In this document: piece after piece, positions 996 through 21,370 of the stretch
Numbering within the stretch: position 1 is the stretch's first letter
Layout of the letters: the number at the start of each line of letters is the position of its first letter
Assembly (NCBI GenBank): GCA_014871385.1
Contig: CM026426.1
Coordinates: 63,903,877-63,967,876, forward strand
DNA from: Ceratodon purpureus
Lineage: Eukaryota > Streptophyta > Bryopsida > Pseudoditrichales > Ditrichaceae
DNA length: 64,000 bases
Reading direction: 5' to 3'
Notes under the pieces: model-generated
Seen by the model: only the letters and a program-made list of their open reading frames with translations
Told to the model about the DNA's origin: nothing
Databases searched by the model: none
Translations under genes and position numbers: made by a program

Positions 996-1045
996 CTGCA
1001 CAGTTGAAATAAAAACATCAGGACATTTCTACATCTGAGACTAAA

Positions 1046-1115
1046 CATCGAGGGATCTCCCGATGTTTGTAAATGACGAATTCGCTTACATAGTTCATCG
1101 GGGGATATCTCGATG
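1046..1115. repeat. two GATC-centred 20-bp palindromes
   Basis: CATCGAGGGATCTCCCGATG at 1046-1065 and CATCGGGGGATATCTCGATG at 1096-1115. Both belong to the dispersed palindrome family described under the findings and lie just upstream of the decayed FCP1-like copy. Confidence 0.85.
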
Positions 1116-1301
1116 GCGCCTCCCAACGCCATGGCACACAGAGGTGGTCAGACCATGTCTTGAAAGAGTATTACCACAGCAAAGCGATTTTAAAACAAAA
1201 CAAATTCAAAGTTCCAGAACTCCATTGCGTTCAGTAAGACAAATGCAAATTTTCAGGAACTCGGTTAGTTTCATTCTGCTATCAAACATGAGGGAGCTAG
1301 A

Positions 1302-1512
1302 GCTTCATTACATGGTCATGTGAGAGAATGTATGTGTTGACAATGAAGAACTCTGAATAAAATGAGTGTTCCATAATCCAAAGTCATTTGCACTAAACTA
1401 CAATCTTCGCTTCATTACATGGTCATGTGAGAGAATGTATGTATTGACAATAAAGAACTGTGAATAAAATGAGTGTTCCAAAATCCAGAGTCATTTGTAC
1501 TAAGCTACACCG
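1302..1512. repeat. 107-bp tandem duplication at the fusion gene's 3' end
   Basis: The block beginning GCTTCATTACATGGTCATG at 1302 is repeated at 1409 with about ten differences. The second copy runs into the stop codon of the minus-strand FCP1-like exon, so the duplicated DNA is its 3' untranslated or flanking sequence. On the minus strand it holds TTTATT-type AT-rich tracts that could act as 3'-end signals. Confidence 0.75.
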
Positions 1513-2157
1513 CCCTCAATATCTTCAGTGCCAAGTCCGACGACCGGTCCATGGGGAACTGACCAAACGGAAGCGGGGCCCGTTTCACATACTCTGGGAC
1601 AGCTTCCCCTGAGCTGAATAGACCCTCCAGCCACGGTTTCAGTGTCATCGTAAGAAACCTATCACCACCATCCCCGGACCAGGTTGGGGGGTGGACAGCG
1701 TTATGAGGGTCGTTGAGAAGGTTCTTCTGTGGACTATCATCCACTAGTAGGACTTTCTCAACGGACTCCAATACCAGGAACTTAGCTAAGACACGGAGAT
1801 CCTTTAGAAAGAACGGCTTGTCTGGTTTTGACGACTCCACGTATGACGAACGTGTGCATTCGTTCTGGCTAAGAACCTGCACATCTGGCAGCTGTAAGGA
1901 GGTGCCCTGAAGAACAACAGGAAGAGTTTCAGGTATATTCCTAGGCGCGATGCTGGTCCAAAAGGCTACCGTTGCCTGAGTATGAAGCCAGTTCAGGAAT
2001 TCCTGGCATCCAGGTCTGAGCATTATAGGGCGCTTTTTTCCCTTGACAAAAATCCCACGGTGAACGAGAACCCCGTTTAAGTCTAGTACAACCGAATACC
2101 TTCGACCGGGTACCTTTCCGATCACCTTTGCTGGAACGGAGGATGGGAGAGGGGGCC
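1505..2157 (-). CDS. fusion gene exon 7: FCP1/NIF-like phosphatase domain
   Basis: Reads 217 codons to a TAG. FCP1/SCP-type landmarks appear in order: VVLDLNGVLV (catalytic motif; first Asp present, second Asp is Asn, as in some plant relatives), AFWTSIAP (Thr/Ser motif), a Lys in KPFFLKDL, and VLLVDDSPQKN with the acidic pair, followed by AVHPPTW. Such enzymes remove phosphate from Ser/Thr, classically on the RNA polymerase II C-terminal tail, but the substrate here is unknown. The acceptor is CATTTTCCAG after a T-rich tract; the first codon is completed by the last base of exon 6. Confidence 0.75.
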
Positions 2158-5100
2158 CTGGAAAATGCAACCAAAAAAAGTCTCATCAGAATTCAGCATC
2201 GGGAGATCCCTCGATAAAGATGTCCACTATAAACAGGTGTGATCAACATTCAGCATCGGGAGATCCCTCGATATAGATGTCCACTGTGAACAGGTGTGAT
2301 CAACATTCAGCATCGGGAGATCCCTCGATATAGATGTCCACTGAAAAAATGTCATAGTAGATCCAAGCATCGGGAGATCCCTCGATGCACATGTTTACTG
2401 AATTCCTCAAGCATCTACAGGAGACACTACACGTTCTACATATGTCCAATCTGAGGACATTAGAACTATCAGTCCTACAATTAGAGTCCGACTAGATACC
2501 TTTCGCACTGTCGTCCAAATTCGGATCTTCGGCTTCCGATGAAATGCCAACCGTTTTAGACGTCGGAATCTGGTAAAGGTTTTTTTTCAAAGTCATTAGT
2601 AAATGGGATTTTATCATTATAGTCCTTGTAAACGAACTCGTGAGCCTGTCTAACTGCTTCAAGATGCTTAGCCTTGCGAGAGGGTGGGGTGTAATTCCCT
2701 CGCTGGGATATGTGATCCCTTACCTGTTCGTCCAGACTAGCACGAGCTCCTGCTGGAGTGCTTTTTCCCTTAGGCTCTCTCTCAGCACCGGAACCTTTTC
2801 CCTTCCCCTTGACCCCCGTTCCGGTGCTAGGCCCAGACTTACCCTTTCCTCGTGTGGCCGGGGGACCGGATGTTGTTCCCGACGGAAGTTCCGGCGGAAG
2901 GGATCGTTGCAAACGCTTCTCCAGCACAAGTGAGCGACATTCACGATCTGTGTCCTTAGATTTCTCCACCTCGACTACATCTACCTCAGTGGATACCTCC
3001 GTAGGTGCGTTGTCTAGGAGCCCTTCATATAAATCCTCGGTAGACTCCTCCACTTCCGCGTCGTTGTCTTTGACCTCGTCACATGCCTTCACATCGTCGC
3101 ACACCGGGGCTTCCGCGTCGCACGACGTCTTCTCCGGGCTGAACGCGTCTAAATCCTTCAGAGTGTCGTCAACAACATCTTCGTTCATGTCAGGAGCCAC
3201 GGGGGGAGACTGATGAGTCTCCCCGGGAGATGTAATCCGTGGGAGAGGAGGCGGGGGGCTGGATGGGAGAGGAGGCGGGGGGCTGCAAGGGATCACATAA
3301 GGAGTGACGGACAGCGAACTCTGAGGACCGCACTCCTCAGGTACGGGGGGGTGTTGGTTTGGAATTGGTGCACTGCCTTCTGTCATCGGGATATCTCCCG
3401 ATGGTGGGATGCACGGTTCATGCTGACTATCAGCTACTCCTCCCTCCGTCTCCTGCTCTTGAAGAGGAGAAATCCTTCCCGGGTCCACAGCATCCCTATC
3501 CGTCCCCTCCGAATCCCTGTGAACTCCCGCGTCCTCCTCTCCTGCTGGTGCGGATTCATTCATTCGCGGAACCGCAGCGAAGTTCTGGACATTAAAGTCC
3601 AAGTCATCCAGCCCGTCAGCACCCTCTCCCACGTCTTCTGCGCCACCTTCAGGTTCCGTAGTCTGAGTCTGGTGATCCACAGGTAATATCCTCATATCCA
3701 GCAGCAACCGAGCTACGTCCTTCGTGTTTCCCGACACGGTGGCAACATCGCTTCGTGGCGTCAAGGACTCCCCCACGTGAGAATCGTCAACGGTGTGATT
3801 CCTCGACGCAGCTCCACCATAAACGCGCCTGGAGTTCAGCAGTCCCTGGAATATGAGTGCAGGTAACCATTAGCGGTAAGAAAAGCTGCAGTGGAGTAGA
3901 AATTGGGTTCCAGTATATGGTACAGGAATACTACAATGCCTTCGAAGTTGACCCGAGGAGCAGTGCTAAGCAATCAAAAGAGAGGTGCCTTGCTCACAAG
4001 AGTAGGGAATTTAGTCGTGAGGGGGATGTTACATGGAATGAAATAATTGGTCGGGAGAGGAATAGCGTTTTCCAGAAATTTAACTTCCTCATTTTCCATA
4101 ATGGTATGCAATTTATGATGCTTACAGAATGGTACAGTTTCTTACAGAACCCCTACACGAGGGTAGTAATCATGCTAGATTTCGCCACTCGATAAAACAA
4201 CATGGAATCCCAAATTAGGGAAGCCTGCCTAAGGTCAAGAACCTACCGAGGTGCAAGCCGTCTCCTCCTCGTCGGAGTTGGATTCGGAATCACCAGGCGG
4301 CGATTGCTCGCGGGCATCTTCATCAGCAGGCACACCATCTTCATTATCACCCTCTCCACCGCCTGCCTCATCATCACCATCGTCACCAGCATCATCGTTT
4401 ACCAATTCATCTGGGTCAACTGCGTCCTTGTAAAGTATGTCCCATATCTGCTTCGACGTCTTCTTCGCGTGTTCCTCATCATCGTCACAGAAGACAACTT
4501 CGAGGACCATGGCTTTGTTTTCCTGTAGACATGCAGGCGATATGAACATGTATAAAATGCGGACAGCACACTCTAACCAAATGTCACGTTCAATTTCATT
4601 GCGTAAGGGTTCAGAAGTGCCGGGAAATGTGGACAGAAGTGCATGATTTATCGGGGGATCCCTCGATGATTTGAGAACCCCTTAAGCCTAGATTTTTAAG
4701 ACGTTATCCGTCCATCGAGGGATCCCCCGATAAATCTTGTATCCGTGAGGACATATCCGGAAACACTGAGGCTGAGAACAGAGAAGGACTTCTGACTTAG
4801 ATTCTATATACGTGAGTGAACGAGTGCATATATCGCGAGTACTATAAGTGGAGGACATCTGCATAATAAGTCTCAAGAACAACAGTGAATTCGCACAAGT
4901 ATGAACTAAAGTGGAAGCATTCGAGTCAGTGAAAGAGAAATATCTAATATGACTTCAACATTCGAAGGGTGCAGACAGAGTACTTACAAGTCCAAGGAGG
5001 GTGAAGTGAGCCCCGCCGTTGACGTTTACGAGCACCATGTTATCTTTAATGTGCTGCTGAAAGATAGTAGAAAGGGCGGCCACCTTAATCGTTGGTCGAC

Positions 5101-8100
5101 CAGGTCGTCTCCATTGCTGGATGGTTTCCGTAATGTCTTTGGCCAGGTACACTGCGTCGAATGGCCTCTTGCCCGCAAAGAAATCCCCGAAGCATTCCTT
5201 CGGAGACTGCGTTGGCGAATAAGCGAAGCAGAAAATCATGTACACAACATACGAAGAACCCAGCTCCGGTTCGGGAAATCCGTCCTCGCGGGAAGGGACG
5301 TAGTGGACCACATGCCAGTTCCACAACCTCCTCTTCGCTGTCCTCGTGCGCGTATCGATGTGCAGTAGTGTCGCATGGAATCCCGCCGCATCTGTGAAGA
5401 CAACTGCTCCTGAGCGAACAAAGACCTGCGTGCTGTTAAGTTCCTGCCCCAATAGAGGATCGAATATCCGAGACAGGACGTTCTCCTGTAGCACCTGAGC
5501 TTTCACTGGCATGTCAGCGATCGCATCAAACAGGAAGTACATGAGTATGTGTGGTTTTGCCCCTCCTCTCCAACTATACACTTCTTCACTTCGCAAAATA
5601 ACATAAATCTCGGGCCTACTCCGGTCCGTAACCACGCACTTATACTTCTGATTGAACCCCTTCTGGATGTGCGATAAGTGACTTGCTTGCTCTTATACCA
5701 TGTTGTGAGCGTCCCACATCACCTTAACGAAGTCAGGCACGTCCACAGGATCACACGTCTTGTTGAGGTTCCTGTTTCGGTCGTCCAGCCACTTCTTCCC
5801 CGAAGCCGTTGCATACGCCTTATCTAGCCAGCTCTCCAGCTCCGCCCGACCGATGTCTCTCGTATTGGCTAACTCCTCCCAGTCCGCAGCAGAATACATT
5901 ATGTATGTGCTCTTACGGCTTGGAAGCTCGAAACCCATATAGTAGTTCATATAGTAGTTCATACATCTGATCAGTCTTTCCCTATTCCCTGCTGTTTGAA
6001 GGGACGGTAATCTCGCCACTTTATCACCTTTGGTGGCCTTCGATCCCTTCACAGATATTTCTTTCTTCTCCACGAGGTCAGCAAGGTGATGGATATCCTC
6101 TGAGCGCAGGCCGTATAGTGGTTTCAAATCGTTCTGGACAAATGGCTTCCGCTTGAGGTCATAGTTCGTCTGCACATTCCCTTGCGCATCTGGGAGCTTC
6201 CCCTTCATGTACTGTTTCTCAATCTCCACCCACCGGTCAACCGCCGTATCGTCTTCAAGAAACAGTAGCGGTATCTTGCAGTCCCTTAGCTCTGATTCCT
6301 TCACGTGTGTGAAGATCGATGCGAGAGCTTGAGTGAATTGCTGCGTACCACACGTCGGGGGAGGGGTTAGTAGAGCTCTCCGACAAAGGAAGTTGCCATC
6401 GGGGGATCGCCCGATGATGGGAAGTACGAGGAATACTCTAAGGGGCCGCGGACATTTCTACAACTCGGATCATCGGGGGATCTCTCGATGACTTTGATAC
6501 ATATATACAGACATACGACTAAGATCATCGGGGGATCGCCCGATGATTGGAAGTACGAGGAATACTCTAAGGGGCCACATACATTTCTACAACTCGGATC
6601 ATCGGGGGATCTCTCGATGACTTTGATACATATATACAGATATACAACAAAGATCATCGGGGGATCTCTCGATGAGGAGGGGAATACAGACTTACCAGAA
6701 ACTCTATAGGGTGCTGCCGTCCCTGTAAAGCTGGCATCGGGCACTTCAACTCTTTCCACTTGATTCTGGCGTGGAGCACCTGCATCATGAATGTGTGCTC
6801 CTTCTGTGGCCCGGCCATATCCTGGTTCAGGACCCGTGAGAGGAGCATGAGCTTGATGTGCTCAGGCTTGGGTGCCCACACTGGGATGATTGAGAACTTA
6901 GACGCCTTGTCTTTGTCAGCCCCAGCAATTTCCCCACTCTCAACGAGATCTCGGTAACACTGAACCGTATGCTGGCCCCCAATGATGAAGAATGGAGTGG
7001 AGCTGTTGATCTGATTCTTCTCCGGAGGTTTACTGAAAAACTCTACTTTTTTATCCGGTCCATAAGGTCCCTTCTTCAGTGGAAGTACAGTGATTTCTCT
7101 ATCTGTTCCACTGTACCTCGGAGCGATGCGCGCCTGGTTCGTCAAGGCTTTTAGCCTGTCCGGAACAAGTCCTCGGTAGACGATTGAACCTGGAGGGGCC
7201 CTGTGCAGCTTTGAGAAGTGCACAGTTATTGGCGCATCATTCTCATCCTTGAGCCTCTCGTGGCCCCACTTGTACAGTGGTTCAAACGCCTCGCTGTACA
7301 GGTTCTTCATCTCCGTCTGCTTGGTCTTGTCCAGCTTCTCAATATCCGAAGCTGACATTGTCACACACTGCTGTAGAGTGAGCTTGTCATCACCCTTTCC
7401 CTTCTTGCCCTTCCCTGTGTCCGGCACCGCAGTTTCCCCGTCATTGATCAAGAAAGATTTCCGTTTTGTGCCCCGCGTCTTCGTAGGAGTAGTCGCAGTC
7501 GGAGTCTTCGATGGACCAGGAGCAGCAGCTTCAACCTCACTTCGCGCCTCGTCAATTAGGTTCCACTGGTTTTCAATTTGTGCCGGAGTCCACTTCGCCT
7601 TATCCTCCGGCAGGTACATCAAGCCCTTGGCAGTGAGGGATGCACACTGATTCAGGCTGAGCTTGCCGAGGTCGAGGATTAGTCCATAAGTTACAGTCCG
7701 ATCGGACTTCGGCATCTTCTCCTCCACCACCATGATAGCTGTCCCCACATCAAGGCCCTTCAGTTCGAGAACATTCAATCCAATCGGGGAATGGATCCGC
7801 GAATCACAGGTGAGGTGGGGGACAATGACGGCCATGCCTCCTGCCGTATTTTTCCACGACATCGCCCATGCGGTGACGTTCTTATCGCAGCAGTAAACTG
7901 CGCAGGGATTTGATTCTCCGACGTGATTGTAGCCATGGATCCAGTGATCGACAAAGGGGAACAGCTTCACGGGCTTGAAGTCCAATGGTATTCCATTATC
8001 TGTTCATTCCTGCAGAACAGACATACATCACTGTTGGTCAAATCCCTGCTCCAAATTAGTTAACATTTGTAGAAACAATTATCTCACAGTACCATTGAAA

Positions 8101-8876
8101 AAATCAGAGGCACGAAAGGGCACTGAGGTCATCGGGAGATCCCCCGATGTTCTGCCATACCTACAGGATGAGATGGGATACCAACACATCGAGGGATCCC
8201 CCGATGGACCAACGATATGACACCTAATCAAAATAGCGCTGTCCATACAGTTCATTGTCCTCGGTGAGCTTATCTGGTTATAAGTTTATGTTTTATTAAT
8301 ATGGTTTGTACTGAGTGGGTCATCGAGAGATCCCCCGATGTTCTGCCATACCCATAGGATGGGAAGGGGATTCGAAGACATCGAGGGATCCCCCGATGGA
8401 CCAAGGACATGTGCAGAGTGGTCATCGGGAGATCCCCCGATGGCTTGCCGTCCCCACAGACTGGTAAGGGGATAGTGACGCATCAATGGTAATTTCAAGT
8501 GAAAAAGGTCATCGGGAGATCCCCCGATGGCATGCCGTTCCGAGAGAGTGGAAAGGGATACTGACGCATCGAGAGATCCCCCGATGGACCAAAGACATTT
8601 TTATCGCATCAACGGATATCACTGAAGTTTTTTACAGTGTCCGTACAGTTTATTTTGTTGGAAGAGGTTCTCAGTTCCGTACAGTTTATGTTCGAACCTT
8701 AGTGTTTACAGTATATAAGAGGTGGAGCTGATTTTTAAGCCGGACTGGGACGTAGGCATTTCGAGATGTGATAAAGGAAAAATGTCACTAAGCACAGAAT
8801 TTGAGATTAAGAAAAAAACTTACGGGTCCTCCCAGACTCTTGCGGTCCCGGGCCCTCTGGATGAACTCCCTGCCAT
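1505..8876 (-). CDS. ParB-like / FCP1-like fusion gene, seven exons
   Basis: I join exons 8876-8824 (tentative), 7985-6696, 6340-4988, 4522-4247, 3845-2724, 2569-2500 and 2157-1505. Exons 2-5 are linked by phase-0 junctions and exons 6-7 by a phase-1 junction, all with good donors (GTAAGT, GTAAGT, GTAGGT, GTAAGG, GTATCT) and AG acceptors. The product would be about 1,590 residues: an N-terminal half with a ParB/Srx-like fold motif, a novel middle, an acidic Pro-rich linker and a C-terminal FCP1/NIF-type phosphatase domain. One in-frame TAA interrupts exon 3. Palindromic repeats sit in most introns. It could be a host gene or the coding part of an unknown mobile element; neither TIRs nor a second full copy were seen. 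The junction from exon 1 to exon 2 does not fit in phase, so the true 5' end is open. Confidence 0.6.
2197..2387. repeat. 57-bp tandem array carrying palindromes
   Basis: Palindromes start at 2197, 2254 and 2311, exactly 57 bp apart, each followed by a TAGATGTCCACT spacer; a fourth diverged unit starts at 2368. The array lies in the intron (2158-2499) just upstream of the phosphatase exon. Confidence 0.9.
2500..2569 (-). CDS. fusion gene exon 6 (70 nt, linker)
   Basis: A 23-codon-plus-one exon between TTTACCAG and AAAG|GTATCT. It encodes an acidic linker (SSEAEDPNLDDSAK) and supplies one base to the first codon of the phosphatase exon. It overlaps the intronic end of the longer unspliced reading frame, which would otherwise stop at 2556. 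Supported only by splice motifs and phase. Confidence 0.55.
2724..3845 (-). CDS. fusion gene exon 5: acidic, proline-rich linker
   Basis: 374 codons between TATTCCAG and ACAG|GTAAGG. The sequence is rich in Glu, Asp, Ser and Pro, with a doubled PPPPLPSSPPPPLP stretch and a basic Gly/Lys-rich tail (GKGKGSG), so it is probably disordered. No domain is recognised. One 20-bp palindrome (3384-3403) is translated within it as part of PSGDIPM without breaking the frame. Confidence 0.55.
3384..3403. repeat. palindrome inside coding exon
   Basis: CATCGGGATATCTCCCGATG, a perfect 20-bp palindrome lying in the reading frame of exon 5 of the fusion gene. Confidence 0.85.
4247..4522 (-). CDS. fusion gene exon 4: acidic segment
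   Basis: 92 codons between CATGTCTACAG and CCTCG|GTAGGT, both in phase 0. It begins ENKAMVLEVVF and becomes a run of Asp, Glu and Gly. It continues the ORF of the long exon across an intron (4523-4987) that contains a large inverted repeat. No domain recognised. Confidence 0.55.
4645..4736. repeat. 24-bp perfect inverted repeat made of two palindromes
   Basis: 4645-4668 and 4713-4736 are exact reverse complements of 24 bases with a 44-base spacer, and each arm is itself a quasi-palindrome of the GATC family. In an RNA copy of this intron the arms could pair with each other or fold separately. Confidence 0.9.
4988..6340 (-). CDS. fusion gene exon 3, with an in-frame TAA
   Basis: 451 codons between GTACGCAG (preceded by a CTACTAAC branch-like sequence) and GGACTT|GTAAGT. 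The frame is open except for one TAA at 5693-5695 (DAHNMV-stop-EQASHL); sequence on both sides reads as normal protein in the same frame. A 36-nt intron with plausible ends (GTATAAG to CCAG) could remove the stop but would be unusually short, so a nonsense mutation or CAA-to-TAA decay is more likely. The stretch before the stop is basic and charged; after it come YVILRSEE and FFAGKRPFDAVY. No family recognised. Confidence 0.6.
6397..6674. repeat. 129-bp tandem repeat with five palindromes
   Basis: Palindromes at 6397, 6471, 6526, 6600 and 6655. Those at 6397, 6526 and 6655, and those at 6471 and 6600, are exactly 129 bp apart with nearly identical spacers (GGAAGTACGAGGAATACTC and ACTTTGATACATATATACAG). 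The array occupies most of the intron between exons 2 and 3 of the fusion gene. Confidence 0.92.
6696..7985 (-). CDS. fusion gene exon 2: ParB-like domain
   Basis: 430 codons ending at TTTCTG|GTAAGT. About residues 245-430 fit the ParB/Srx N-terminal pattern: ITVHFSKLHRAPPGS, then RGLVPDRLKAL, then TPFFIIGGQHTVQCYRDL (the GGxH/R motif) and LLSRVLNQDM. ParB-type domains bind or cut nucleic acid, or hydrolyse CTP, in bacteria and phages; the role here is unknown. Residues 140-200 are a Lys/Thr-rich hinge. The unspliced frame runs on into a palindrome (HREIPR), which shows where coding must end. The true 5' boundary is uncertain: the upstream in-frame codons include a TGA just after a TTCTGCAG acceptor. 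Confidence 0.6.
8130..8586. repeat. palindrome cluster in paired arrangement
   Basis: Palindromes at 8130, 8187, 8321, 8379, 8423, 8510 and 8567. They come in pairs 57-58 bp apart: the first of a pair is followed by a TGCCGT- or TGCCAT-like sequence and the second by GACCAA. A degenerate eighth site lies near 8480. The cluster fills the region between the tentative first exon and exon 2 of the fusion gene. Confidence 0.9.
8824..8876 (-). CDS. tentative first exon of the fusion gene
   Basis: ATG GCA GGG AGT starts a 17-codon stretch (MAGSSSRGPGTARVWED) ending at a consensus donor CC|GTAAGT. It lies on the right strand 840 bp upstream of exon 2, but its phase does not match either visible acceptor there, so another small exon may be missing. 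Confidence 0.35.
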
Positions 8877-9590
8877 AGCTGCCTGCAAACTCTGCACGGC
8901 GATGGCACGATGCACGGGAAATTGCAAACAAAAAATGAGAATGAGAAATAAAAGAACAGTTTAGAGGAGCAAACACTGTGACGAATTTTAAGTTCACCTC
9001 CCTCTACTCGTTCCGACAATGCAAGTAACCATACCAACGCATACGATAATAACAATTATGCAAGAGATTGGCAAGTGCAAACACAAAAGAGGAGACACAA
9101 ACCCAATTGACCAAGGAATGTGCGCAAGAAATACCTGCGAGTACAGTCGCAGGTGGAAAACCCCCGATCCGCTGCTTCGTCTTCCTTCTCAAATCCCGCT
9201 CCGACGATCCGAGTTCCTTGTCCGCCCCCCGATTCCGAAAGCTCCGCCTCGATCGACAGAGAATGCCACTCCCAAACACCTCTCAAATGCCGAAAAAAAC
9301 ACCTCTCACTCGCCTCTCAAACACTTCTCAATCGCCCTAAATCGAGAGGAAAAGAATTACTCGCCCTAAACAATAGAACCAACTCTCAATCGCCCTAATC
9401 CTCCCTCGCAAATCGACACACGGAAGCGAATTTCCACGACGACCTAAGCCCCTCGACAGAGAATGTTGTGGAAAGCGAAGGGAACAGACGCGGGAGAGGA
9501 GCGACCTACAGGAAGGTGGCGCCAAAGCGAGGTAGAGCGGAAAAGCACTCGAGCGACGCCGTCTTTGCACTGTACAGTGGAGAACTTAGT
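8877..9590. other. upstream region of the fusion gene, no ORF supported
   Basis: GC-moderate DNA with many short overlapping ORFs on both strands and none with a domain or splice support. By position it would be promoter and leader for the minus-strand gene; I see no clear TATA box. Confidence 0.3.
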
Positions 9591-10990: not shown

Positions 10991-11002
10991 AAAAAAAAAA
11001 AA

Positions 11003-11100
11003 ACATTTGAATGGTGTGTAAATGCAAAATGGGGGCAAATTTTGGTGCTGCTTGTCATTTACTTCAAGACACTATAAATTAAATTGACCAATACTTTTCA
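11003..11100. repeat. diverged outlying copy of the 127-bp repeat
   Basis: After a 20-A run, the sequence from CATTTGAATGGTGTG to ATTAAATTGACC matches the tandem units near 12.2 kb with few changes (for example GGTGCTGC for GGTGATGC). A 27-bp duplication (ACCAATACTTTTCATCAG) follows. Confidence 0.8.
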
Positions 11101-12089
11101 TCAGAATAAAAAATTACCAATACTTTTCATCAGAATAAAAAAAAATGAGTTCCTTATCCTGTTTAGTTTTCATTGGAACTCACATTGGGTTGGCAACCTC
11201 AACCCCATTCACAGTACACATTAAGGGACATGGTTCTCCAACTCCATGTGAGTTATTGGAGCCATCATGGTGAATTCTTCTTAAGGTAAGAAAGAGCAGG
11301 TTTACCAAACCTTATGGGGTTAACAATATGGAGACTGAACCGCACTATCTATCTTTAAAGTAACTTCCTATAAAAATTTATTCACTTCCTCACTACCCGT
11401 ATCAGGTTAATACAAATAAAATACAAAAAGGGTCAGTAATATTTAATTCGCAATTCTTACAAATATTGATATTACCAATCAGTGATTCTGATATAACTAA
11501 AATTATTATTACATAATGAAAAGTATATTTTTAAATTGCAGTATCTATGTACATGCTTGTATATGAATTCTGAATTACCAAAATCTTCAAAATTGCATGG
11601 AATATATTTGGAATAGAATTCTAATTCATAATTAAACTAACAAGTTGTAGAAGAATAATATGATGATAACATTTGCGTAAATATGTTCCCAATTATAGTA
11701 TAGTAAATAAATTTTCATTGCTAATAGTGTATTTATATTTGATGCATTCGTAATATAATTACAAAACTATTTCGAATATATTTGTATATCATTTTTAGAT
11801 TTGAGTATACTTGAATATAGATTATTATTCTCGTTTCATAATCAATAACTAAAAATAAATTTGGAAAAGAATATATTAGTACCTTAGTATACTATACTAT
11901 ATTATTATATTATAATTAAATTATGTTCCTAACATGTACTTTAGGAATATGATGATTATATTTACGTAAATATGTTTCCAATTTGCGTATATGAAATTCA
12001 TTATCATTGCAAGTAGTGTATTTGAATTTGATGCTTCGGCAAATAACTACAAATTATTATTACAAAATTGGAAGAAGCATTATTGAATT

Positions 12090-12460
12090 GATGCAAAATG
12101 GGGGCAAATTTTGGTGATGCTTGTCATTTACTTCAAGACACCATAAATTAAATTGACCCTTACGAGATTTGTGTGACTTCAAAAAAAAAAAAAAAAAAAC
12201 ATTTGAATGGTGTGTAAATGCAAAATGGGGGCAAATTTTGGTGATGCTTGTCATTTACTTCAAGACACCATAAATTAAATTGACCCTTACGAGATTTATG
12301 TGACTTCAAAAAAAAAAAAAAAAAAACATTTGAATGGTGTGTAAATGCAAAATGGGGGCAAATTTTGGTGATGCTTGTCATTTACTTCAAGACACCATAA
12401 ATTAAATTGACCCTTACGAGACTTATGTGATTACAGAAAAAAAAAATAAAAAAATATGTG
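12090..12460. repeat. 127-bp tandem repeat, about three copies
   Basis: Units start at about 12199 and 12326 (AACATTTGAATGGTG), with a 5'-truncated unit before and a diverged start after. Each ends in a run of 17-20 A after GTGACTTC. The poly-A block in each unit suggests the monomer arose from a retroposed short sequence. Spurious minus-strand ORFs within it are satellite translations. Confidence 0.92.
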
Positions 12461-12519
12461 AATGGTGTGTAAATTAGATAGTCCCTCCAAAGTTTTATGT
12501 GACCTCGAAAATTCTAAAA

Positions 12520-12612
12520 TAGAGAAACCCTAAACCCTAAACCGTAACCCTTAAACCCTGATCCCTGAAACCCTGAACCCTGAAACCCTGAACCCTGAAC
12601 CCTGAACCCTCA
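12520..12612. repeat. decayed interstitial telomere-type repeat
   Basis: Two perfect CCCTAAA units, then variants (CCGTAAC, CCCTTAAA, CCCTGAA, CCCTGAAA) for about 90 bp. The perfect units match the plant telomere repeat TTTAGGG read on the other strand. It directly follows the 127-bp satellite. Confidence 0.85.
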
Positions 12613-12639
12613 AGCTTGAACTCAGAAATGGCCTATTAC

Positions 12640-13620
12640 GCCAGCACTCCCATGAAAAGTGTGGGAACAGAAACGTGGCTTAAAGGTCGTGGTACGTGAC
12701 TCTAATAAATCATGCCCTGGTGTGGCTATCTACGTAACAGATCTAGACATATAAATACATCTTGGTCCTTCGTAGAGAGCGACTATAGTACAGTAGTGGA
12801 CCAGGTGATGATATGGACACTCCTACAGAAGTAGGGGGGACAGATCGAGATTCGCTGCATCATGAAATGGAAACCACCCTCACGAAAGTACTGCTGGATG
12901 GTTTATGCATCATGACATGTATGTTCCCTTCAAATTCAAACCTGAAGGGCTCGATCTTGTTTCCCCCTTCTGAATTGGCGGGGATTCTCCGTTTGAATTC
13001 TCTGCTGGACCGCCATCTCCTGATTCATTCACATCAATTCAGAGCAGTCTCCTCAGAGTTGTTTCATTAGCGCGTTTCAGAGTACCAGTTTCCTGCAACA
13101 TAGCATGTCGTAGACGGGTTGTAGAACCTTGGACTGGTGGTAGAACCTGAGATTAGAGGGTTGCGGGGAACCGAGGATGGGATTGAGGTGCCGGAGAATC
13201 ATTCGAGGAGGCGGAGGGAGCATCTGCTCGGGTGTTTAGAGCGGCCGATTACATTCGCAGGGAGCGCAGGTATGATCTCGGTCTTTCCTTGGAAGATCTT
13301 TGTCAATCGGGTTTATTTCATTGCTCTTGAATGGTGTGTTCTATCTCCTGTACACGTTACATGTGCTGATCATGTGATCCATCGCGGAATCCCCTATTGT
13401 AAGTAGAATTGTTCATGTAGTTCTCCGCGGATTATGTAGAATTTGCAAAGGTATCGGGGAATTTCTAGTTAAGATCAACCCTTGCATGTTGCATATTGGT
13501 GGAATGAACTGCACTTATGTGATTTCCGTGTTGTTGTAGAAATTATTCTGTACGGACAGGAATCTCACTGTACGGACAGGGGGTGGCGAGGTGGAGGCTG
13601 CTTCTTCGTGGACCCAACTA
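12640..13620. other. upstream region with no recognised gene
   Basis: Two plus-strand ORFs (12813-13070 and 13137-13406) have no recognisable motif, no clear splice context and ordinary base use. Decayed palindromes occur at about 13380 and 13450. By position this is upstream DNA of the transposase-like gene at 13953. Confidence 0.35.
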
Positions 13621-13624
13621 CACT

Positions 13625-13932
13625 CATCGGGAGATCCCTCGATGCTGCTTTGGAGATCATAATCGAGAGACACTCATCGGGAGATCCCCCGATCCTATAG
13701 AAGTTAGACCCTCATCGAGAGATCCCCCGATACTTCTTTGGAGATCCTCATCGAGAGACCCCCATCGGGAGATCCCCCGATCCTAAAGAAGTTAGACCCT
13801 CATCGAGAGATCCCCCGATACTTCTTTGGAGATCCTCATCGGGAGATCCCCCGATCCTATCGAATTTAGACCCTCATCGGGAGATCCCTCGATCCAATAG
13901 AATTTAGACCCGCATCGAGAGATCCCCCGATA
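13625..13932. repeat. promoter-proximal palindrome array
   Basis: Eight palindromes (13625, 13675, 13713, 13763, 13801, 13837, 13875, 13913) separated by short alternating spacers, ACTTCTTTGGAGATCCT and TAGAAGTTAGACCCT. The last spacer, ACTTCTTTGGCTCTCG, runs straight into the start of the downstream gene, 21 bp before its ATG, so the array is the gene's immediate 5' flank or leader. Confidence 0.92.
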
Positions 13933-13952
13933 CTTCTTTGGCTCTCGTGAAA

Positions 13953-15227
13953 ATGGACTCTGAGAGTGACAGTGACGGTCCCCAGATGCCGTCTGTGGGT
14001 CCTTCCCGTCACGACTTCTCTCAGGAATCAACTGCTCGCTCAGATGAGCTTCGACCCGGGCAGTCTGTGAAGCTTGTCGTCCCCCGTTTCGGAGATGTTG
14101 GAATCGGATCTGTTGTCGACGTTAATCCTTTTGGGCAGTGGCTTGGGGTTTGCATTCCACCTGGCTCTTCAGAATTTATTCTTGTGCAACCATCAAGCAT
14201 CGTGTCGGACGCAGAGGACCTCTTCCTCGAACCACGCCAGAGAGGCTGCATCGTTTTGAGGGATGCTTTGAATCGAACAGTCCTCTGGAGAGCTGGTGAT
14301 GCGATTGCATTGTTGCAGGATCCTCCCACGAACGATGTTGAATACGTTCGTCAACAATCCTGGATTGGTCTGGAAGTTCAGAAAGTAGACCTTGCGGGTG
14401 CGGTTATAGCCTCCGGTAGAGTGTTCTGCTCAGAACCGGAGGAGTATTTCCGAGACGGAAGATTGGGCGAGGGATACATTGGAGTGACAATCCTCGACGT
14501 CTTTGTCGGGGACACTGATGCCATAATGAGTAATGAGCGTTGGTTGATATCTGAATGCAAATTCCCGAACGGCCCTTCTCTTCGGTCAACAGTAGAGCAC
14601 TTCTCCCGAATCCCAATGGAGGTAGATCCACAGGAGCACCTTGGAGGCAGACGGAAGGCACCTTACCGGTTTATAGTGCGGAAACCTAAAACGCATGAAA
14701 AACGTTTGCTGTACAATACGAAGACAGCGGATGCGGAAGTGAGGAAGGTTAGCTCCGAACGATGCTGCTCGAAGCATTGCTGTTAGACATTTCCCCAGGA
14801 GCTCACGCTAATAGTGCGTAAGAAATTCTATTCGAAATCCTTTCAGGGAAGACGGGAATACGGGATTGCGGCGGGTGGACAGATGCATTCAATCGACGGT
14901 GACCGTAGGAGGAAGTACTTGACGCTGCATGGTTTGGAAGTTTGCGCAACTGCGTGGTATCTTATTCACGGAGTTCCCAAGTCAACTTTTCATAGCTATG
15001 TCCAACGATACAACGAAGGGGTTCTATCAACAGCGCATGGAAACAAGGGCTACAAGCGACCGAGGATCGGAACAGTTCAAGTCATGGGTACTATTGCTGC
15101 TATTGTAGACGAGAATGCAGATCAGATGCCCCATCAAATGCGAGGAATCGGAAATGGACGAGTGGACACTCTGAAATATCTTCCAGCAGGCAACAACTGG
15201 AAGCGGGTGATGGCTGACGCCAATGAG
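13953..15227 (+). CDS. DUF7869-like transposase gene, 5' part
   Basis: The ATG at 13953 opens 265 codons to 14747. In the same frame a TAG at 14784 would stop translation, but a 51-nt phase-0 interval (AAG|GTTAGC to TTCCCCAG, 14748-14798) could be spliced out, after which the frame runs on to AATGAG|GTATGA at 15227. The N-terminal part is unrecognised (SDELRPGQSVKLVV, then GQWLGVCIPP). The second part has a helical DNA-binding look (HGLEVCATAWYLIHGVPKST) seen upstream of the catalytic region in DUF7869-type proteins. Whether the short interval is an intron or the TAG is a lesion is not settled. Confidence 0.6.
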
Positions 15228-15265
15228 GTATGAGTCCTTGCTTCGCGTTTCTTGTAGTGTCATTG

Positions 15266-15285
15266 CATCGGGAGATCTCCCGATA
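15266..15285. repeat. palindrome in an intron
   Basis: CATCGGGAGATCTCCCGATA lies inside the 227-nt intron (15228-15454) of the transposase-like gene, whose acceptor is TTTTCCTCACCAG. Confidence 0.85.
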
Positions 15286-15454
15286 GAGGTTACTTTCGTA
15301 TTGACAGTCAGTTCTCTGTCTTATAGTATCGTTGCACTCTACCTACGTCATGCAATATAGAACTCTTTTTCTCGTCTTCGGTGATTTGTCTGAATTTGTC
15401 GTCTAATACTTCGAGCTTGTTTGCTTGCGTGCGTCGCTTTCTTTTCCTCACCAG

Positions 15455-16294
15455 CCATTTGAACGTACCGGTGCTTTGCAGACAAATGTTTCATTAGGTC
15501 TGCCTACAGTGAGCCAGTCTACAATTAGTAGAATTAGAAGTTCACTCTTCAACAATATCGCAATCAAACCGGTTGGAAGTTCTTTTGCGAAATGCTCAAC
15601 ATGTGACCAACTTCAAGAATTCATTCTGAAGTCAGCCAACGGAAGTCCAGAATATGTTGACTTCGTGAAGCAACGGGAGGAGCATCTTGCTCACCAAGCC
15701 TCTTGTCGTCGTCTGTATGGTGCATGGCGCGAAGAATCAAAGCGCAATCCCAGCGAGATTCTGTGCATCATTCATGACAAGATGGATACTGCAAAAACCG
15801 CCCTTCCCCGGATGCGGGTTACAACAATGGCTACTCAAGGTTTGGGCCAACTTCCCATGAACGTCACTGGTATGGTTTCTCATGGGCACGGGGATGGCGC
15901 CTATGCACATTACTGTCCTCAATGTTGGCCAGGAGATTCTAACGCCACAATATCGTCGTTGGCGAGGCTGTTCCGTCGACTGGAAGGCCCCTCATTTCGG
16001 GAGTCTGGGAAACTATTTGAGTACCCCCCGCAAAACTCATTGTTCGAGACATTGTTGAGGGGGAAGTCTAGGTGCCTCGACATTTTACCGCGTATCGAGG
16101 GATCCCCCGATGTCCCAAGGTCGAAACCTTTACCGAGGAAGTTATACCTTCAACTAGATAACTCCGCCAAAGATAACAAGAACCAATATCTCATGGCGTT
16201 TCTCTCCCTGCTGACTGCACGGGGTGTTTTCAAGGAAATTCAGGCTGGATTTCTACTAGTGGGTCATACGCACGAAGATATTGACGCTTTTTAG
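15455..16294 (+). CDS. DUF7869-like transposase, catalytic region
   Basis: Follows CTCACCAG in phase 0 and runs to a TAG at 16292. It shows the three blocks I associate with this transposase-like family: CIIHDKMDTAK, LYLQLDNSAKDNKN and LLVGHTHEDIDAF, which probably supply the acidic residues of an RNase H-like fold. A Cys pair (FAKCSTCDQLQEF) precedes them. A palindrome is translated at 16093 as RIEGSPDV between blocks. The stop arises in a T run (GCTTTTTAGCC): family members continue with FS, and the next frame supplies it. Confidence 0.7.
   Translation, partial: PFERTGALQTNVSLGLPTVSQSTISRIRSSLFNNIAIKPVGSSFAKCSTCDQLQEFILKSANGSPEYVDFVKQREEHLAHQASCRRLYGAWREESKRNPSEILCIIHDKMDTAKTALPRMRVTTMATQGLGQLPMNVTGMVSHGHGDGAYAHYCPQCWPGDSNATISSLARLFRRLEGPSFRESGKLFEYPPQNSLFETLLRGKSRCLDILPRIEGSPDVPRSKPLPRKLYLQLDNSAKDNKNQYLMAFLSLLTARGVFKEIQAGFLLVGHTHEDIDAF
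16093..16112. repeat. palindrome inside transposase coding frame
   Basis: TATCGAGGGATCCCCCGATG, one mismatch from the consensus at the outer base, read in frame as part of RIEGSPDV. Confidence 0.8.
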
Positions 16295-17420
16295 CCATTT
16301 GTCGAAGGCATTAAAAAGCAAGAATATGTTCGTTCTAGCGGATCTAATGAAGGCCTTCATGCAGTCCCAGGAGTTGTCATTCATGCCGGAGTTCATTCAA
16401 GAGGTTGCAGACTTCAAGTCTTTCATCAAAGGCTATCAAAGTAGTGGTGCAGCACGCCTTATTGGACTTGGAGAGATGCACCTTTTCAAGTTCTATGTGG
16501 ACGATGATGGTTGGCCGGTTATGAGGTACAAGAAGTCAGCCGTCGACCCACAATGGCTACCCCTCAACAGACCCCCTATTCGATTGTGGAATGAAAACAT
16601 GGATAGCGGCCCAAAACTTCCTCACGGCTCACCGAAGCCGGTTCCGTTCAAACCTATGTGGGGAAGTGAGGTTCCTAAATCTACTGGGAATCAGGTGAAG
16701 GCGAGAGAGACCGCAGCCAAAGCTACTGAGAACAAGAAATTCATGAAGTGCGGACTCCAAAAGTACATTGAGTACTGGAAAAATGGAATGGCAAAATGCG
16801 AGGGATTTGCAGCAGCGTTTGGGCCTTATGTTGACTACTGGACTCGTTTGTTGTCTGAGCTTGATAAGCCTTTGCCAGTGACAAATCCTGAATTGTTAGA
16901 GGGTTTCTGGCCCCGCCATGACTGGAGGGACGTATCCAACGGAGTACCGCGCCCAAGATTTTTACAATTTTTACTGGAGGATGTGACTCCTGAGGATGAG
17001 GAACCAGAAGCGTATTGTGGCCCAGCAAACCAAGCTCCGGAGAGTCCTTTCAATCCGTGGCGTGATATTCGGCCTGGCAGCTGGGTTCTTTTGAGACCTG
17101 AAGATCCACTCATTTGTCTTGTATGGCAGGGAAGAGCAGCGACTGCTGTATGCAGAGAGGAAGGCCATGTAAACCATGGGAAATTTTTAATTCAGTTTTG
17201 GGAACCTCGTAGCGCGGAAAGAGACCTTGCATTGAAATACCGTAACTGTTGGTCTGCTAAGTGGGTAGTAGAGACGCGTGCTCCGGAGTGGGTCTCTGTT
17301 GGTGCAGCTCTGTTTCAAAATTGGTCAAAAATCAAGGACCCGTCCACTAGAACCATTCCTAAGAAATCTATGGAGGCTGCTTTAGCAAACTTAGAGAGAG
17401 CTAACGTAGTTGATCCATGA
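16281..17420 (+). pseudogene. DUF7869-like transposase, C-terminal part after a frameshift
   Basis: The frame overlaps the preceding segment by 14 bases and begins FSHLSKALKSKN, the direct continuation of GHTHEDIDAF, so the break is a change of T-run length (five T where seven would restore DAFFS). The rest is 360 codons, ends LANLERANVVDP and contains WVLLRPEDPLICLVWQGRAA, a possible small beta-barrel. Without programmed frameshifting the protein is cut at the catalytic site, so I call it broken. Confidence 0.65.
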
Positions 17421-17431
17421 TCCTCTATGCC

Positions 17432-17512
17432 ACTTAGGCACGACAGACGGTCATCCCTCGATGATTACATCTGAGTCACCTGTCTTCCTCATTCTCTATT
17501 AAAGAAATAAGA
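17432..17512 (+). repeat. shared 3'-end repeat, copy 1
   Basis: Just after the stop of the transposase-like gene: TTAGGCACGAC, a half-palindrome (CATCCCTCGATGA), TCTGAGTCACCTG and CATTCTCTATTAAAGAA. The same ordered block occurs at about 19459, 20342 and 21280, so this is the 3' end of a repeated element family. Confidence 0.75.
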
Positions 17513-17642
17513 GTCATCACTGCTTGACCGTTTCTCATCCCCGTGTAATATCATCCTTCCTCGTGTCAATGATGTTTGTTTCTGAGATTTGTGACACTTT
17601 AAGAACCATGACGATCATGACTGCGCAACGTGGAGACTGGTT

Positions 17643-17826
17643 GTGGAAGCAGATGGAGTAGTGGGAAACTGGAGGAAGGAAGTAGAAGCTTTCAGAACAA
17701 GGGGGGAAGGAGAGAAACTGCAGATTCATACGCCCAGTTCATTTGGTGTCGATAAACTTGAACTCCGAGCGTTCTGTTCAGGAGCGACTTTGGCAGCGGC
17801 AGTAGAAAGCAACGCAAGTTCCCGAG
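17643..17826 (+). CDS. possible first exon of unknown gene
   Basis: An open frame with ATG-free flanks ends at a consensus donor GAGCAG|GTGAGA. A T-rich intron with a TTTCCACAG acceptor (18390) follows, leading to the exon at 18392. If joined in phase, the frame becomes a short acidic tail that stops near 18445, so this exon may be leader sequence only. No protein motif. Confidence 0.25.
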
Positions 17827-18391
17827 CAGGTGAGAGCAATGCACACATGCAGGGGCCATGGCCAATCGACTTTAGTTTTTAGTTGAAATTCTCTTCTTTG
17901 CGTTTTTGGTTGTGTTGCGTATCGACTCTGTTGGGTTCTTGAGCAATTAGCAACACGAGTCATTGAGATTAGCTGGTGTATTAGTTTGAGCAGATACGGG
18001 GGGCATGTAATTAGGTTTTGGTCCACTGGAGTCGTCGTTTTCCTAATACATATGGACATACAATGTGGACAGCCTGATCCCACTGTATGTTGTTGCATTT
18101 GTCGATCGAGTACTTTTGTTGAGGTGGAAATTTGGCTAAGTGCTGCGATGAACTTGTAGAAAAAAGGATTTGCTGTTTAGGGTTCAGGGTTTAGGGCTCT
18201 GGAGGTGGATTTACATTCATATACATCATGTGTTTCAGTTGAAGGGTTTGAGATAACATATCTTGTCATCAGTTTTTTAACTTCTTTGAAGTGTGTTGTG
18301 GTTATTGGTTCTTTCGGATCTGGTTTTATGAACTTCATGTGGGTCTAGAATTTTCTAATATTTTTCTCTTGAATTTTTTTTTCCACAGTTC

Positions 18392-19009
18392 CCAGGTATG
18401 GAACAGGATCCGACTCTCACGAAGGGGAAGATGATGATGATTGAGGATGGTTCAACCTCCCAGAGGGAAGTCCAGAATATGGTCTTCAATGGAGATTGCG
18501 AGAAACCAGAACTTCCAGTCTGGAGAGATTCAGCAGCAAGGAGAGGTGGAGAGTTTCAATTCATGAAAGATGCACCTCTCAACCTGCCATGCCTACGACA
18601 TTGGCTGAAGGATCTGAAGACATTTCAAGAGACAACAAAGTATGAAGTTCCTGATTATGACAAAGTTTCTGGGATGAATTGTGAAGGATGGGATGGAACT
18701 TGGAGCTCCATTGCTTTGAGGCAATCTGTGGCCGTTGCAAATGCAACTGGGGTGATGCACCCTCCAAGGAACAAGAAGAACCAACTCGACTACATGAGGA
18801 ATCAGGTCCTTTCCATCATGAAGCACCTGGAAGAGACAATGGAGATAGAAGGGACAATGGAGACAGAGCCAGCTCCAGCTCCAACAGTGCCAGCTCCGAC
18901 AATGGCAACTCCGAAAGCGACTGGATATTCTTTCGCCAAATATCAAGCCGCCATCAACAAAATGGAAGAAAACCTCAAGAAAATGGAAGAAAACCGCAAG
19001 GATTTGTAA
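18392..19009 (+). CDS. unknown protein with C-terminal coiled coil
   Basis: After an intron-like acceptor (TTTTTTTTTCCACAG) an ATG at 18398 opens 203 codons. Sequence: acidic Met-rich start, a middle with PVWRDSAARRGGEF and NCEGWDGTWSSI, a Pro/Ala/Thr hinge (EPAPAPTVPAPT), and a repeated KMEENLKKMEENRK tail likely to form a coiled coil. The upstream intron contains short TTTAGGG-like units at about 18178. I do not recognise the family. It could be an exon of a longer gene or a transposon-borne accessory protein. Confidence 0.45.
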   Translation, partial: PGMEQDPTLTKGKMMMIEDGSTSQREVQNMVFNGDCEKPELPVWRDSAARRGGEFQFMKDAPLNLPCLRHWLKDLKTFQETTKYEVPDYDKVSGMNCEGWDGTWSSIALRQSVAVANATGVMHPPRNKKNQLDYMRNQVLSIMKHLEETMEIEGTMETEPAPAPTVPAPTMATPKATGYSFAKYQAAINKMEENLKKMEENRKDL

Positions 19010-19458
19010 GTGTGGTGGATGCCTTACGAGGAGGATTTTACTTCTGATTTAGCGGATATGTTGTAGTCAGAGACTTCAGGTGCCATTGAGGCAGGTTTTG
19101 TAGTTCTATGTTTCAGCGGACACGTAGGAGATTTTGTGTAAAAACATTCCTACTGTTCTCGTTCTCTGAACAATTCTGTTTAAGTCCATTCTCACAGACT
19201 TTAGTTGCCATTGAGCCCGGTTTAGAATTTTGACTAGATGACATGAAGTACTCGTAATTGTAAATTCTCAATCTGTAATGGTGGTTGTATGAGCACGGTT
19301 ACACCTATTTGTTAAATAGGTTTGAATGTGTGAATATCGCAATGCACTGGATCGGCAGGACGTAATTGACCGATTGAAAAATTAAAATAAATTAATTCCT
19401 CAGAAAACACAAACCAACATCGCACAGAAAATAACGCCCTAAACCAAAACTGTTTACA

Positions 19459-19530
19459 GTTTTTTGATCGGAGATCCTATATGCTGTTTAGGTACGACAT
19501 CGGGAGATCCCTCGATGATTACGTCTGAGT
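19459..19530 (+). repeat. shared 3'-end repeat, copy 2
   Basis: TTTTTTGATCGGAGATCCT, GCTGTTTAGGTACGA, the palindrome at 19498-19517 and GATTACGTCTGAGT, colinear with the copies at 17.4, 20.3 and 21.3 kb. Confidence 0.8.
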
Positions 19531-19773
19531 AAATAAGTCCTAGTCCTAATGATGCAAATGATGAGTAAGCTAGTCCTAGTCGGCTACCAGCCAAGTAGGG
19601 GAGTAGGGGCTACTAGACTAGGTCGACGTTGGCAATTAGTCGTCCAGAAAACCCTAGAGAAGTGGATTACTAGAACGTTTACCAGTTTACTAGACGAACT
19701 CGTCGGCTGTCTACTGTAGAAGCAGGTCGCATACTGTAGAAGTTAGTCGCATATTGTCCAATATTTTGTCGTT

Positions 19774-20295
19774 ATGGGGAGGCGGGGTAGCAATGTGGAG
19801 CGACCATTTGGTCGGGAGACACCGGCTAACCTCGAGGAGCTCCGGCCGTGGTATAGGGCGGTGGTTGCCCGTTCTCGCAACACTGCCATTCCAGCTTTCA
19901 AATACATCCCACGCCTTCTGCAGCCAGGTGCGCGGTGGTTTTGGAGTATTGCTCACAGCATTGAGTTGTTGGAGATCTCTGACGCTTCCAGCATCGCCTT
20001 CCCACTGACGTTCGAGGAGTCCGAGGAGTCCGAGGAGTCCGGGAGTGTTGGCAGTGTGCACTTCAGCCACACAGGGGAAATGTCAACGCAAACCATGTCA
20101 ACTTCAGGGTGGCTCCGCCTTGTTGACGAAGCTTACGACATCTCGGAGGGTGCTGGAAGTCGGTGCTCTGGCCAAGATCAGTGGTGCGGAGGGAACGCAA
20201 GCCCGCAGTCCACGTATTCGTCGTTTGGATCCGTGCATCCATCCGTCGATACTGGGTGTAGTGTTGTCCGAGCCAAGTCTACTGCGAAGGACTGA
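19774..20295 (+). CDS. hypothetical 173-residue ORF
   Basis: ATG-started frame, 173 codons, without recognised domain. It contains a 9-bp tandem repeat (GAGGAGTCC, three copies at 20020-20046) translated as a Glu/Ser run. Immediately after its stop the sequence TCGTCTGTGGGTCCTTCCC matches the start of the transposase-like gene (13990), then the shared 3'-end repeat follows. It may be an internally deleted relative of that element that kept only the ends. Confidence 0.4.
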   Translation: MGRRGSNVERPFGRETPANLEELRPWYRAVVARSRNTAIPAFKYIPRLLQPGARWFWSIAHSIELLEISDASSIAFPLTFEESEESEESGSVGSVHFSHTGEMSTQTMSTSGWLRLVDEAYDISEGAGSRCSGQDQWCGGNASPQSTYSSFGSVHPSVDTGCSVVRAKSTAKD

Positions 20296-20341
20296 TCGTC
20301 TGTGGGTCCTTCCCGTCTATGGGTCCTTCCCGTCAGATGTT

Positions 20342-20450
20342 TACAGTTTTTTGATCGGAGATCGTATATGCTGTTTAGGTATGACATCGGGAGATCCCTC
20401 GATGATTACGTCTGAGTCACCTGACTTCCTCATTCTCTATTAAAGAACGC
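20342..20450 (+). repeat. shared 3'-end repeat, copy 3
   Basis: The longest and least decayed copy, from TACAGTTTTTTGATCGGAGA through the palindrome at 20385-20404 to CATTCTCTATTAAAGAA. Confidence 0.85.
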
Positions 20451-21092
20451 CCTCCTCATGTTCTCATAGTAATAGATTACGTTCGCTGTATGTCTTGCGC
20501 AGAATTCCATTGCCTGATGCTCAGTTCGTGGTGATTGTCAAGAGGATGAGTCCGTGCTTTAGACCTGCACTTCTCGGTTTTAATCCCTGAACTTCATACC
20601 ATCTGATCCTGTTTTCCTCTTTGCTTCTGAACTTGCAGGCATTTTCCACATGATTAACTTCTTCCTGCTAATCAGCTCAGATATCGGAAGGGGACTTTAG
20701 CAAATAGTTAGCAAGACTGTTATATCCTACGATGTTTGGTAACCATAGATGTAAAAACAGATCACTTTCATCTTTTTGTATCTCTTGTCGAAGGTGTCCC
20801 CCGTGTGGGTTGTGAACTACTTTTTGAATGGAATGCCTTCAAAACAGAGTTGCTTTGAATAATAAACAGAGTTTCATTTGATGCTTTCATATTTGTATAT
20901 TTCGTATTCTAAGATTTCCATGGTTTGGAATAAATTTAGTAGCAGCAAATCTAGAATAGTTTCAAAACTGCTTCACATTATAATATGTCGGTCATGTTTG
21001 ATATTGGGGTATTGCGTGAAAAATACTTCTGAGGCCGCAAGCCTTGTACCTGATTGTATGTTTGCCATGTGATATCCATGGTTGTTCTCTGA

Positions 21093-21370
21093 CATCGCGG
21101 GATCCCCCGATGAATGGTAGAGTACTTCCGAGCCCACATCTCTTCCTCTCTTCCGTTGGTCACTATTGATGCAGTGGTGTATGCAACTTCGTCGTGGATC
21201 ATGGATCCGACGTGTAGAATCATTCCCAAGATAGCCATGGAATCTGCGTTAGCAAATGTATTGGGAGACAATGTTTCTGATCGGAGACCCTATGTGCTGT
21301 TTAGGTACGACATCGGGAGATCCCACGACGAGTCCGTCTGAGTTAATTCTCTTCCTGAGATAATTCTCTT
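21093..21370 (+). pseudogene. 3' remnant of a second transposase-like copy
   Basis: The frame at 21114-21341 includes MDPTCRIIPKIAMESALAN, aligning with KDPSTRTIPKKSMEAALAN at the end of the intact-length copy (17335-17400). It is followed by the shared 3'-end repeat with a damaged palindrome at 21311. Another palindrome lies at 21093. Only the last 25 or so codons and the 3' end are recognisable. Confidence 0.75.

Follow-up and report, generated by a model that had tools for sequence, protein, structure and literature searches.

What are the short GATC-centred palindromes that recur along the left part of a 64-kb stretch of Ceratodon purpureus DNA, and what would hold their sequence together? 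The stretch, called the window here (64,000 nucleotides of assembly GCA_014871385.1, contig CM026426.1, positions 63,903,877 to 63,967,876), lies on a 110.5-Mb contig of the 362.5-Mb assembly. Judged from the sequence, window positions 1-21804 represent a single copy of a giant DNA transposon that we assign to family F1, and the palindromes are repeated tags inside this transposon, not free-standing mobile hairpins. The tags are probably binding sites for a dimeric, sequence-specific protein which the carrier transposon itself encodes and with which they co-evolve.

Allowing up to three mismatches, the window contains 35 matches to the pattern CATCGRGRGATCYCYCGATG (15 exact, 19 with one mismatch and one with two), all within 1046-21330, in agreement with the roughly 35 sites of the preliminary description of this DNA. 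The same search in 100 dinucleotide shuffles of the window gave 0.01 ± 0.10 matches, which rules out a chance origin. From 21.4 to 64 kb there is no match with three or fewer mismatches, and the nearest ones, at 21653 and 63433, have four mismatches each, so that the reported near-absence of the motif to the right of 21.4 kb holds. Many sites had been called perfect palindromes, but none of the 35 has all ten pairs in Watson-Crick form. Pairs 6 and 8 are usually A·C or G·T, and the symmetry is that of the degenerate pattern, with the half-site CATCGRGRGA. We count this half-site symmetry, as opposed to hairpin symmetry, in favour of binding by a protein.

Most of the sites belong either to small tandem flank families of 57, 129, about 88/38 and about 190 bp or to a dispersed 83-bp repeat (copies at 17407, 19461, 20348 and 21274, the first with a degenerate site), and a few are singles. 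Because most sites belong to such tandem families or to the 83-bp repeat, the 35 sites represent about a dozen independent places. The settings first listed for them (introns, promoters, coding frames, tandem and single) can be refined to two coding sites (3384 and 16093) and 33 non-coding ones, some of which (e.g., 6397, 6655 and 13913) overlap a stop-to-stop frame. Our gene model was built from open frames and splice-like ends, without transcripts, and its introns are inferred. Two genes serve as landmarks below: a transposase-type gene with a DUF7869 region, and a minus-strand gene for a protein that we refer to as GGQH. The sites are arranged as follows, ORF standing for open reading frame.

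1046..1115, plus strand: two sites (1046 and 1096) in an inferred intron
2197..2387, plus strand: four sites in a 57-bp tandem array, in an inferred intron
3384..3403, plus strand: one site within an open frame
4649..4732, plus strand: two sites facing each other as an imperfect inverted repeat, in an inferred intron
6397..6674, plus strand: five sites in a 129-bp tandem repeat, in an inferred intron; three sites in the other three young copies
8130..8586, plus strand: seven sites upstream of the GGQH frame, in the inferred first intron of a minus-strand gene
13625..13932, plus strand: eight sites in a tandem array directly upstream of the transposase-type gene
15266..15285, plus strand: one site between the two transposase ORFs, in an inferred intron
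16093..16112, plus strand: one site in the DUF7869 frame, where the sequence is variable from family to family
19498..21330, plus strand: four sites in the 3′ part (19498, 20385, 21093 and 21311), with a degenerate relative at 17444
21441..21687, plus strand: subterminal 95-bp array of diverged palindrome copies at the right end of the element

The extent of the element was defined by its other copies. Window 1-21804 aligns with copies on contigs C1 and C2 at mostly 96–98% identity (about 92% over 8.4–11.1 kb), and homology to F1 ends at 21804. The window starts directly after a 10-kb N gap, into which the left end of this copy falls; alignment to the C2 copy, which also carries degenerate palindrome copies near its left end, places window position 1 about 208 bp inside the element. 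In other copies the element begins with ATGCCATATTTAACTATTTCTGGAC and ends with its reverse complement, and two copies are flanked on both sides by a 4-bp target duplication (TAGA and AAGA). F1 carries, that is, terminal inverted repeats and a short target duplication, as cut-and-paste DNA transposons do. All four further copies tried showed the right end, and one of them, the AAGA copy, showed the left end as well. The other three young copies are 22.4–26.2 kb long, one of them being cut by an N gap, and close to the end of C1 there is a partial copy, which covers window 554-9408 at 83–94% identity, depending on the segment.

Two C1 copies border a 10-kb N gap (C1:10279644-10289643), one of two such gaps at or inside F1 copies, the other being that to the left of window position 1. 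Both have an ATAA flank, read on two ends from the two assembly pieces across the gap, and they may be one insertion duplicated by assembly, even though the lengths of their 127-bp arrays are not the same. The 127-bp array (window 11022-12474) has about three units in the window copy and dozens in a C1 copy, and its unit number explains much of the length difference between F1 copies. Among the four young copies, the number of palindromic sites differs in arrays only.

The whole genome contains 1092 exact F1 sites, whereas the reversed pattern gives none. The first 50 sites listed, on C1 and C2, all lie in element-homologous DNA (50/50), although at one place, C1:128.9 kb, only about 500 bp, sites included, are common with F1. 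Among the sites listed, one larger repeat family thus explains where the motif is placed, the outcome that the preliminary description had named as refuting its proposal. A prokaryotic or viral source was also considered and rejected: two viral and five prokaryotic stretches had one site each (both strands), which we read as chance.

Related elements in the same genome carry other motifs. A search with the DUF7869 ORF returned 134 matches, a lower bound as 133 of 1063 candidates were scored; they comprise 98 F1 loci (72–100% identity to the F1 query), 27 loci of a second family, F2 (62–69%), eight of a third, F3 (56–57%), and a second piece of one F1 locus. A 20-kb F2 stretch (L032+L033) has 27 GATCGTAGGATCCTACGATC sites with up to four mismatches, and a 10-kb F3 stretch (L034) has 17 CGTCGGCNGNCNGCCGACG sites with up to three, as compared to none in five mononucleotide shuffles of either. 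Neither stretch contains an F1 site with three or fewer mismatches. Likewise, three partial diverged F2 copies have nine, seven and four F2 sites, while F1 and F3 sites are absent from them at up to four mismatches. Genome-wide, the F2 motif GATCGTAGGATCCTACGATC has 609 exact matches and the F3 motif CGTCGGCKGNCNGCCGACG has 1186, with none for the reversed controls. The first 50 listed F2 sites (C1 and C2) form three clusters, two of them over F2 DUF7869 matches, and the 50 listed F3 sites form six clusters with much the same internal spacings, three of them over F3 GGQH matches.

The half-sites, CATCGRGRGA in F1, GATCGTAGGA in F2 and CGTCGGCKG in F3, share the form RTCGNNNG. In all three families there are sites upstream of the transposase gene, in the gap between the ORFs of this gene, on its 3′ side and along the minus-strand gene. 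Short motifs in inferred introns and upstream regions are therefore family-specific, differing between related families, and we regard this motif switch as the chief support for reading the palindromes as binding sites, alongside the reduced substitution described below. The right end of F2 resembles that of F1; an F2 left end was sought in L038 and F3 ends in the fetched stretches (L038, L039), and these were not found there.

Two further observations concern the families. A stretch of ∼500 bp with a short ORF (window 19594-20078 versus L033:2386-2882) is 83% identical between F1 and F2 at the DNA level, far above the 68% of the transposase gene, and perhaps reflects a later exchange between the families or a strongly constrained gene. 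Moreover, 83 of the 98 F1 and 19 of the 27 F2 DUF7869 loci are on contig C6 (110.5 Mb, about 30% of the assembly), which, judged by its size, looks like a sex chromosome. PMC8000587 gives a genome of 360 Mb for C. purpureus, with U and V chromosomes of more than 100 Mb each.

A comparison of copies, which had been suggested together with the genome-wide count, shows that the sites change less than their surroundings. When the window copy is aligned with the partial C1 copy, 6/220 site positions differ compared to 75/536 in the adjacent 30 bp (p=9e-7) and to 688/6833 among all non-site positions, adjacent ones included (p=7e-5); these counts cover ungapped positions up to 8060, array units absent from one copy being excluded. 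Pairs of young F1 copies, counted with the arrays at 8.1–14.0 kb left out, have 2, 2 and 0 changes per 360 site positions versus 1.7–1.8% outside. Three F2 comparisons gave 5/180 versus 30/423, 11/120 versus 45/282 and 6/80 versus 55/210 for sites and nearby positions, or 22/380 versus 130/915 when pooled (p=7e-6). The suggestion that the palindrome is a binding site under selection is thus supported by fewer substitutions and by the family-specific switch, with the binding itself putative. As a separate observation, in the diverged F2 copy L036 seven of 11 site changes are C-to-T or G-to-A, four of these at the CpG of the motif, a pattern that might be expected of methylated, silenced copies.

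Which protein could read the sites? Further features of the element, its genes among them, are listed here.

1505..2182, minus strand: NIF-type phosphatase-like frame (Pfam PF03031, E=7.4e-17)
6654..8003, minus strand: ORF of the GGQH protein, unclassified, aligned across F1, F2 and F3
12091..12474, no strand: 127-bp tandem array without palindromes, three units in the window copy
13908..14786, plus strand: N-terminal ORF of the transposase-type gene, 292 amino acids here and 441 in the C2 copy
15407..17420, plus strand: DUF7869 region, probable DDE-type transposase core (Pfam PF25273, E=1.1e-31 and 3.7e-06)
21780..21804, minus strand: right terminal inverted repeat of 25 bp, reverse complement of the left end

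Other ORFs are also found on the minus strand; a Ulp1-like reading of the frames at 4955-6457 lacked Pfam support and was dropped. DUF7869 (PF25273) is a family of unknown function, whose cut-off the F1 transposase-type protein passes. In the window copy the region is interrupted, forming two overlapping frames, whereas the C2 copy, like many others, has one frame of 671 amino acids. Its D127, D251 and E290 are invariant in the three-family alignment, and their spacing (124 and 39) appears DDE-like; together with the N-terminal ORF, in which a CC...C cluster is conserved, it is the probable transposase. Among 10 window frames and 10 further frames, DUF7869 gave the only transposase-type Pfam match, with no Mutator-like element (MULE) domain, and no Tnp2-type transposase is present in the scanned frames of the element. 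In listings and abstract openings of open-licence papers we recognised nothing on this motif or on DUF7869, and a search for the DUF7869 name gave no paper.

Our leading candidate for the site-binding protein is GGQH, with the N-terminus of the transposase as the alternative. Both GGQH and DUF7869 proteins occur in F1, F2 and F3, and GGQH diverges faster: its F2 and F3 versions are 30 and 23% identical to F1, compared to 63 and 50% for the DUF7869 ORF. The genome has at least 97 GGQH matches with the F1 query and at least 91 with the F3 query (91 of 749 candidates scored), many of them in frames without stops. Of 94 F1 GGQH loci, 64 lie within 15 kb of an F1 DUF7869 match; on C6 this holds for 55 of 74, versus a random mean of 1.6. 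The GGQH motif is reminiscent of ParB or DGQHR-type DNA-binding proteins, and a binder of this kind was considered and set aside, as no significant match was obtained in Pfam, NCBIfam or PDB sequences and the best PDB match was SlmA at E=1.3.

In the mechanism that we propose, the palindromes would form an element-wide address, each half-site being read by one subunit of a dimer. With sites in introns, upstream regions and 3′ ends, the protein would mark the copies of its own family and no others. The likeliest purpose would be regulation or anti-silencing of the element's own genes, as for VANC on VANDAL transposons.

The VANC/VANDAL system of Arabidopsis is the nearest functional parallel to F1-F3 (PMC5735166, PMC10398659). 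According to PMC5735166, VANC21 motifs occupy introns of the VANC21 and VANB21 genes as well as the region upstream of VANA21, which encodes the transposase; VANA is conserved and VANC variable, and the motifs turn over in tandem arrays and differ between related families. F1-F3 likewise combine a short motif repeated in putative introns and upstream regions with tandem-array turnover, motifs that change from one family to the next, and a probable transposase that is conserved beside a second protein diverging faster. The F1 motif, however, is a 19-20-bp palindrome, unlike the 9-base YAGTATTAY of the VANC system.

VANDAL elements carry a Mutator-type transposase, whereas the transposase-type protein of F1 is a DUF7869 protein, and the GGQH proteins of F1, F2 and F3 have no Pfam match to the VANC domains DUF1985 or DUF287 up to E=5. 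F1-F3 thus appear VANC-like in their working and yet are not VANDAL elements, as VANC domains are missing and the transposase is another one. In contrast to VANC, binding and demethylation are putative for F1. We tentatively suggest, as a possibility somewhat short of probable, that a self-address of the VANC type arose independently in a lineage of moss transposons: GGQH would bind a 19-20-bp palindrome dispersed over its own 20-kb element, and switches of this motif would have split the lineage into families blind to one another, at least three of them in one genome. That the effect of the sites is anti-silencing as such is a more tentative proposal still.

Two other systems are more distant. 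TnpA binds many copies of a short motif in the subterminal regions of En/Spm and other CACTA transposons. F1 also has many copies of a short motif, putatively bound by an element-encoded protein, but those kept best are spread through about 20 kb of its interior, and its scanned frames gave no Tnp2-type transposase. In PMC2670323, the organelle and nuclear palindromes of Volvox carteri are described as stem-loops averaging about 50 nt, the nuclear copies being thought organelle-derived. Like these, the short F1 palindromes occur in introns and intergenic DNA; unlike them, they have no loop and are never fully paired, and the listed sites of each motif lie within one transposon lineage.

Several points weigh against binding sites read by an address protein. 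The young F1 counts are small and their pairs not independent, and the F2 copy with 11/120 site changes is not significant by itself (p=0.08). Selecting the sites for their match in a single copy accounts for part of their deficit, since such ascertainment lowers apparent site divergence by up to half under neutrality; with the expectation halved, F1 still stands out (6 seen versus about 15 expected) and F2 does so weakly (22 versus about 27). Array sites may in addition be homogenised by unequal exchange. F3 was read in one copy, in which several sites overlap open frames. GGQH has no significant match among Pfam, NCBIfam and PDB sequences and no recognised DNA-binding domain, and its fast divergence does not by itself establish a role as binder.

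The alternative that survives best, though we consider it unlikely, is that the binder is the transposase itself: the N-terminus of the DUF7869 protein would contact the sites, as TnpA does its sites in En/Spm, to bring about synapsis or repress a promoter, and there would be no separate address or anti-silencing protein. This would account for the diverged motif copies in the subterminal or 3′ part of all three families, for those close to the left end in one F1 copy, and for motifs that change along with the transposase family; the conserved CC...C cluster and the conserved HG..KS segment of the N-terminal ORF could belong to a DNA-binding region. However, end recognition predicts the reverse of the pattern seen, in which the subterminal copies are the most degenerate and the sites kept best lie inside the element, in inferred introns and upstream regions up to about 10 kb away from either end.

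Neutral concerted evolution is improbable. On this view tandem duplication and gene conversion multiplied a palindrome-rich repeat of the ancestor, and each family then drifted to a version of its own with no binder. Tandem flank families are common and arrays gain or lose units between young copies, as it would have it, but sites with unrelated flanks, singles included, share the family version while their flanks do not, substitutions are depleted in sites relative to adjacent bases (with the ascertainment caveat), and both palindrome halves switched together. Very improbable, finally, is the tiny mobile or templated unit copied into new places that was proposed at the outset: it would explain identical or near-identical 20-mers with unrelated flanks and, by a copying step, the joint switch of dispersed sites, but non-array positions are constant in copies that are 2–10% diverged, pairing is lost, the listed sites are all clustered with no scatter outside elements or clusters, and no clean 20-bp presence/absence site was noticed in the printed alignments around sites, no systematic search having been made.

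Other transposon remnants lie to the right of F1. LINE (long interspersed nuclear element)-type frames occupy window 22251-30353, next to the right end of the transposon, with a reverse transcriptase (PF00078) at 25732-27402; a CACTA-type fragment (Transposase_21) at 36566-37042 is outside the F1 element, and a hAT-type fragment (Dimer_Tnp_hAT, DUF659) is found at 44676-47259.

If binding by an element-encoded protein is the correct reading of the palindromes, this moss would provide a second, unrelated case of transposons that recognise themselves by dispersed family-specific motifs. One genome would hold three readable lock-and-key pairs, with open frames without stops in many copies, so that in-vitro binding could directly address two questions: by what route a protein and its dozens of dispersed sites come to change specificity jointly, and whether new transposon families arise from such switches. 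A function would also be assigned to a protein that lacks a recognised domain, and the simple palindromic sites would be usable for locus-specific chromatin work.

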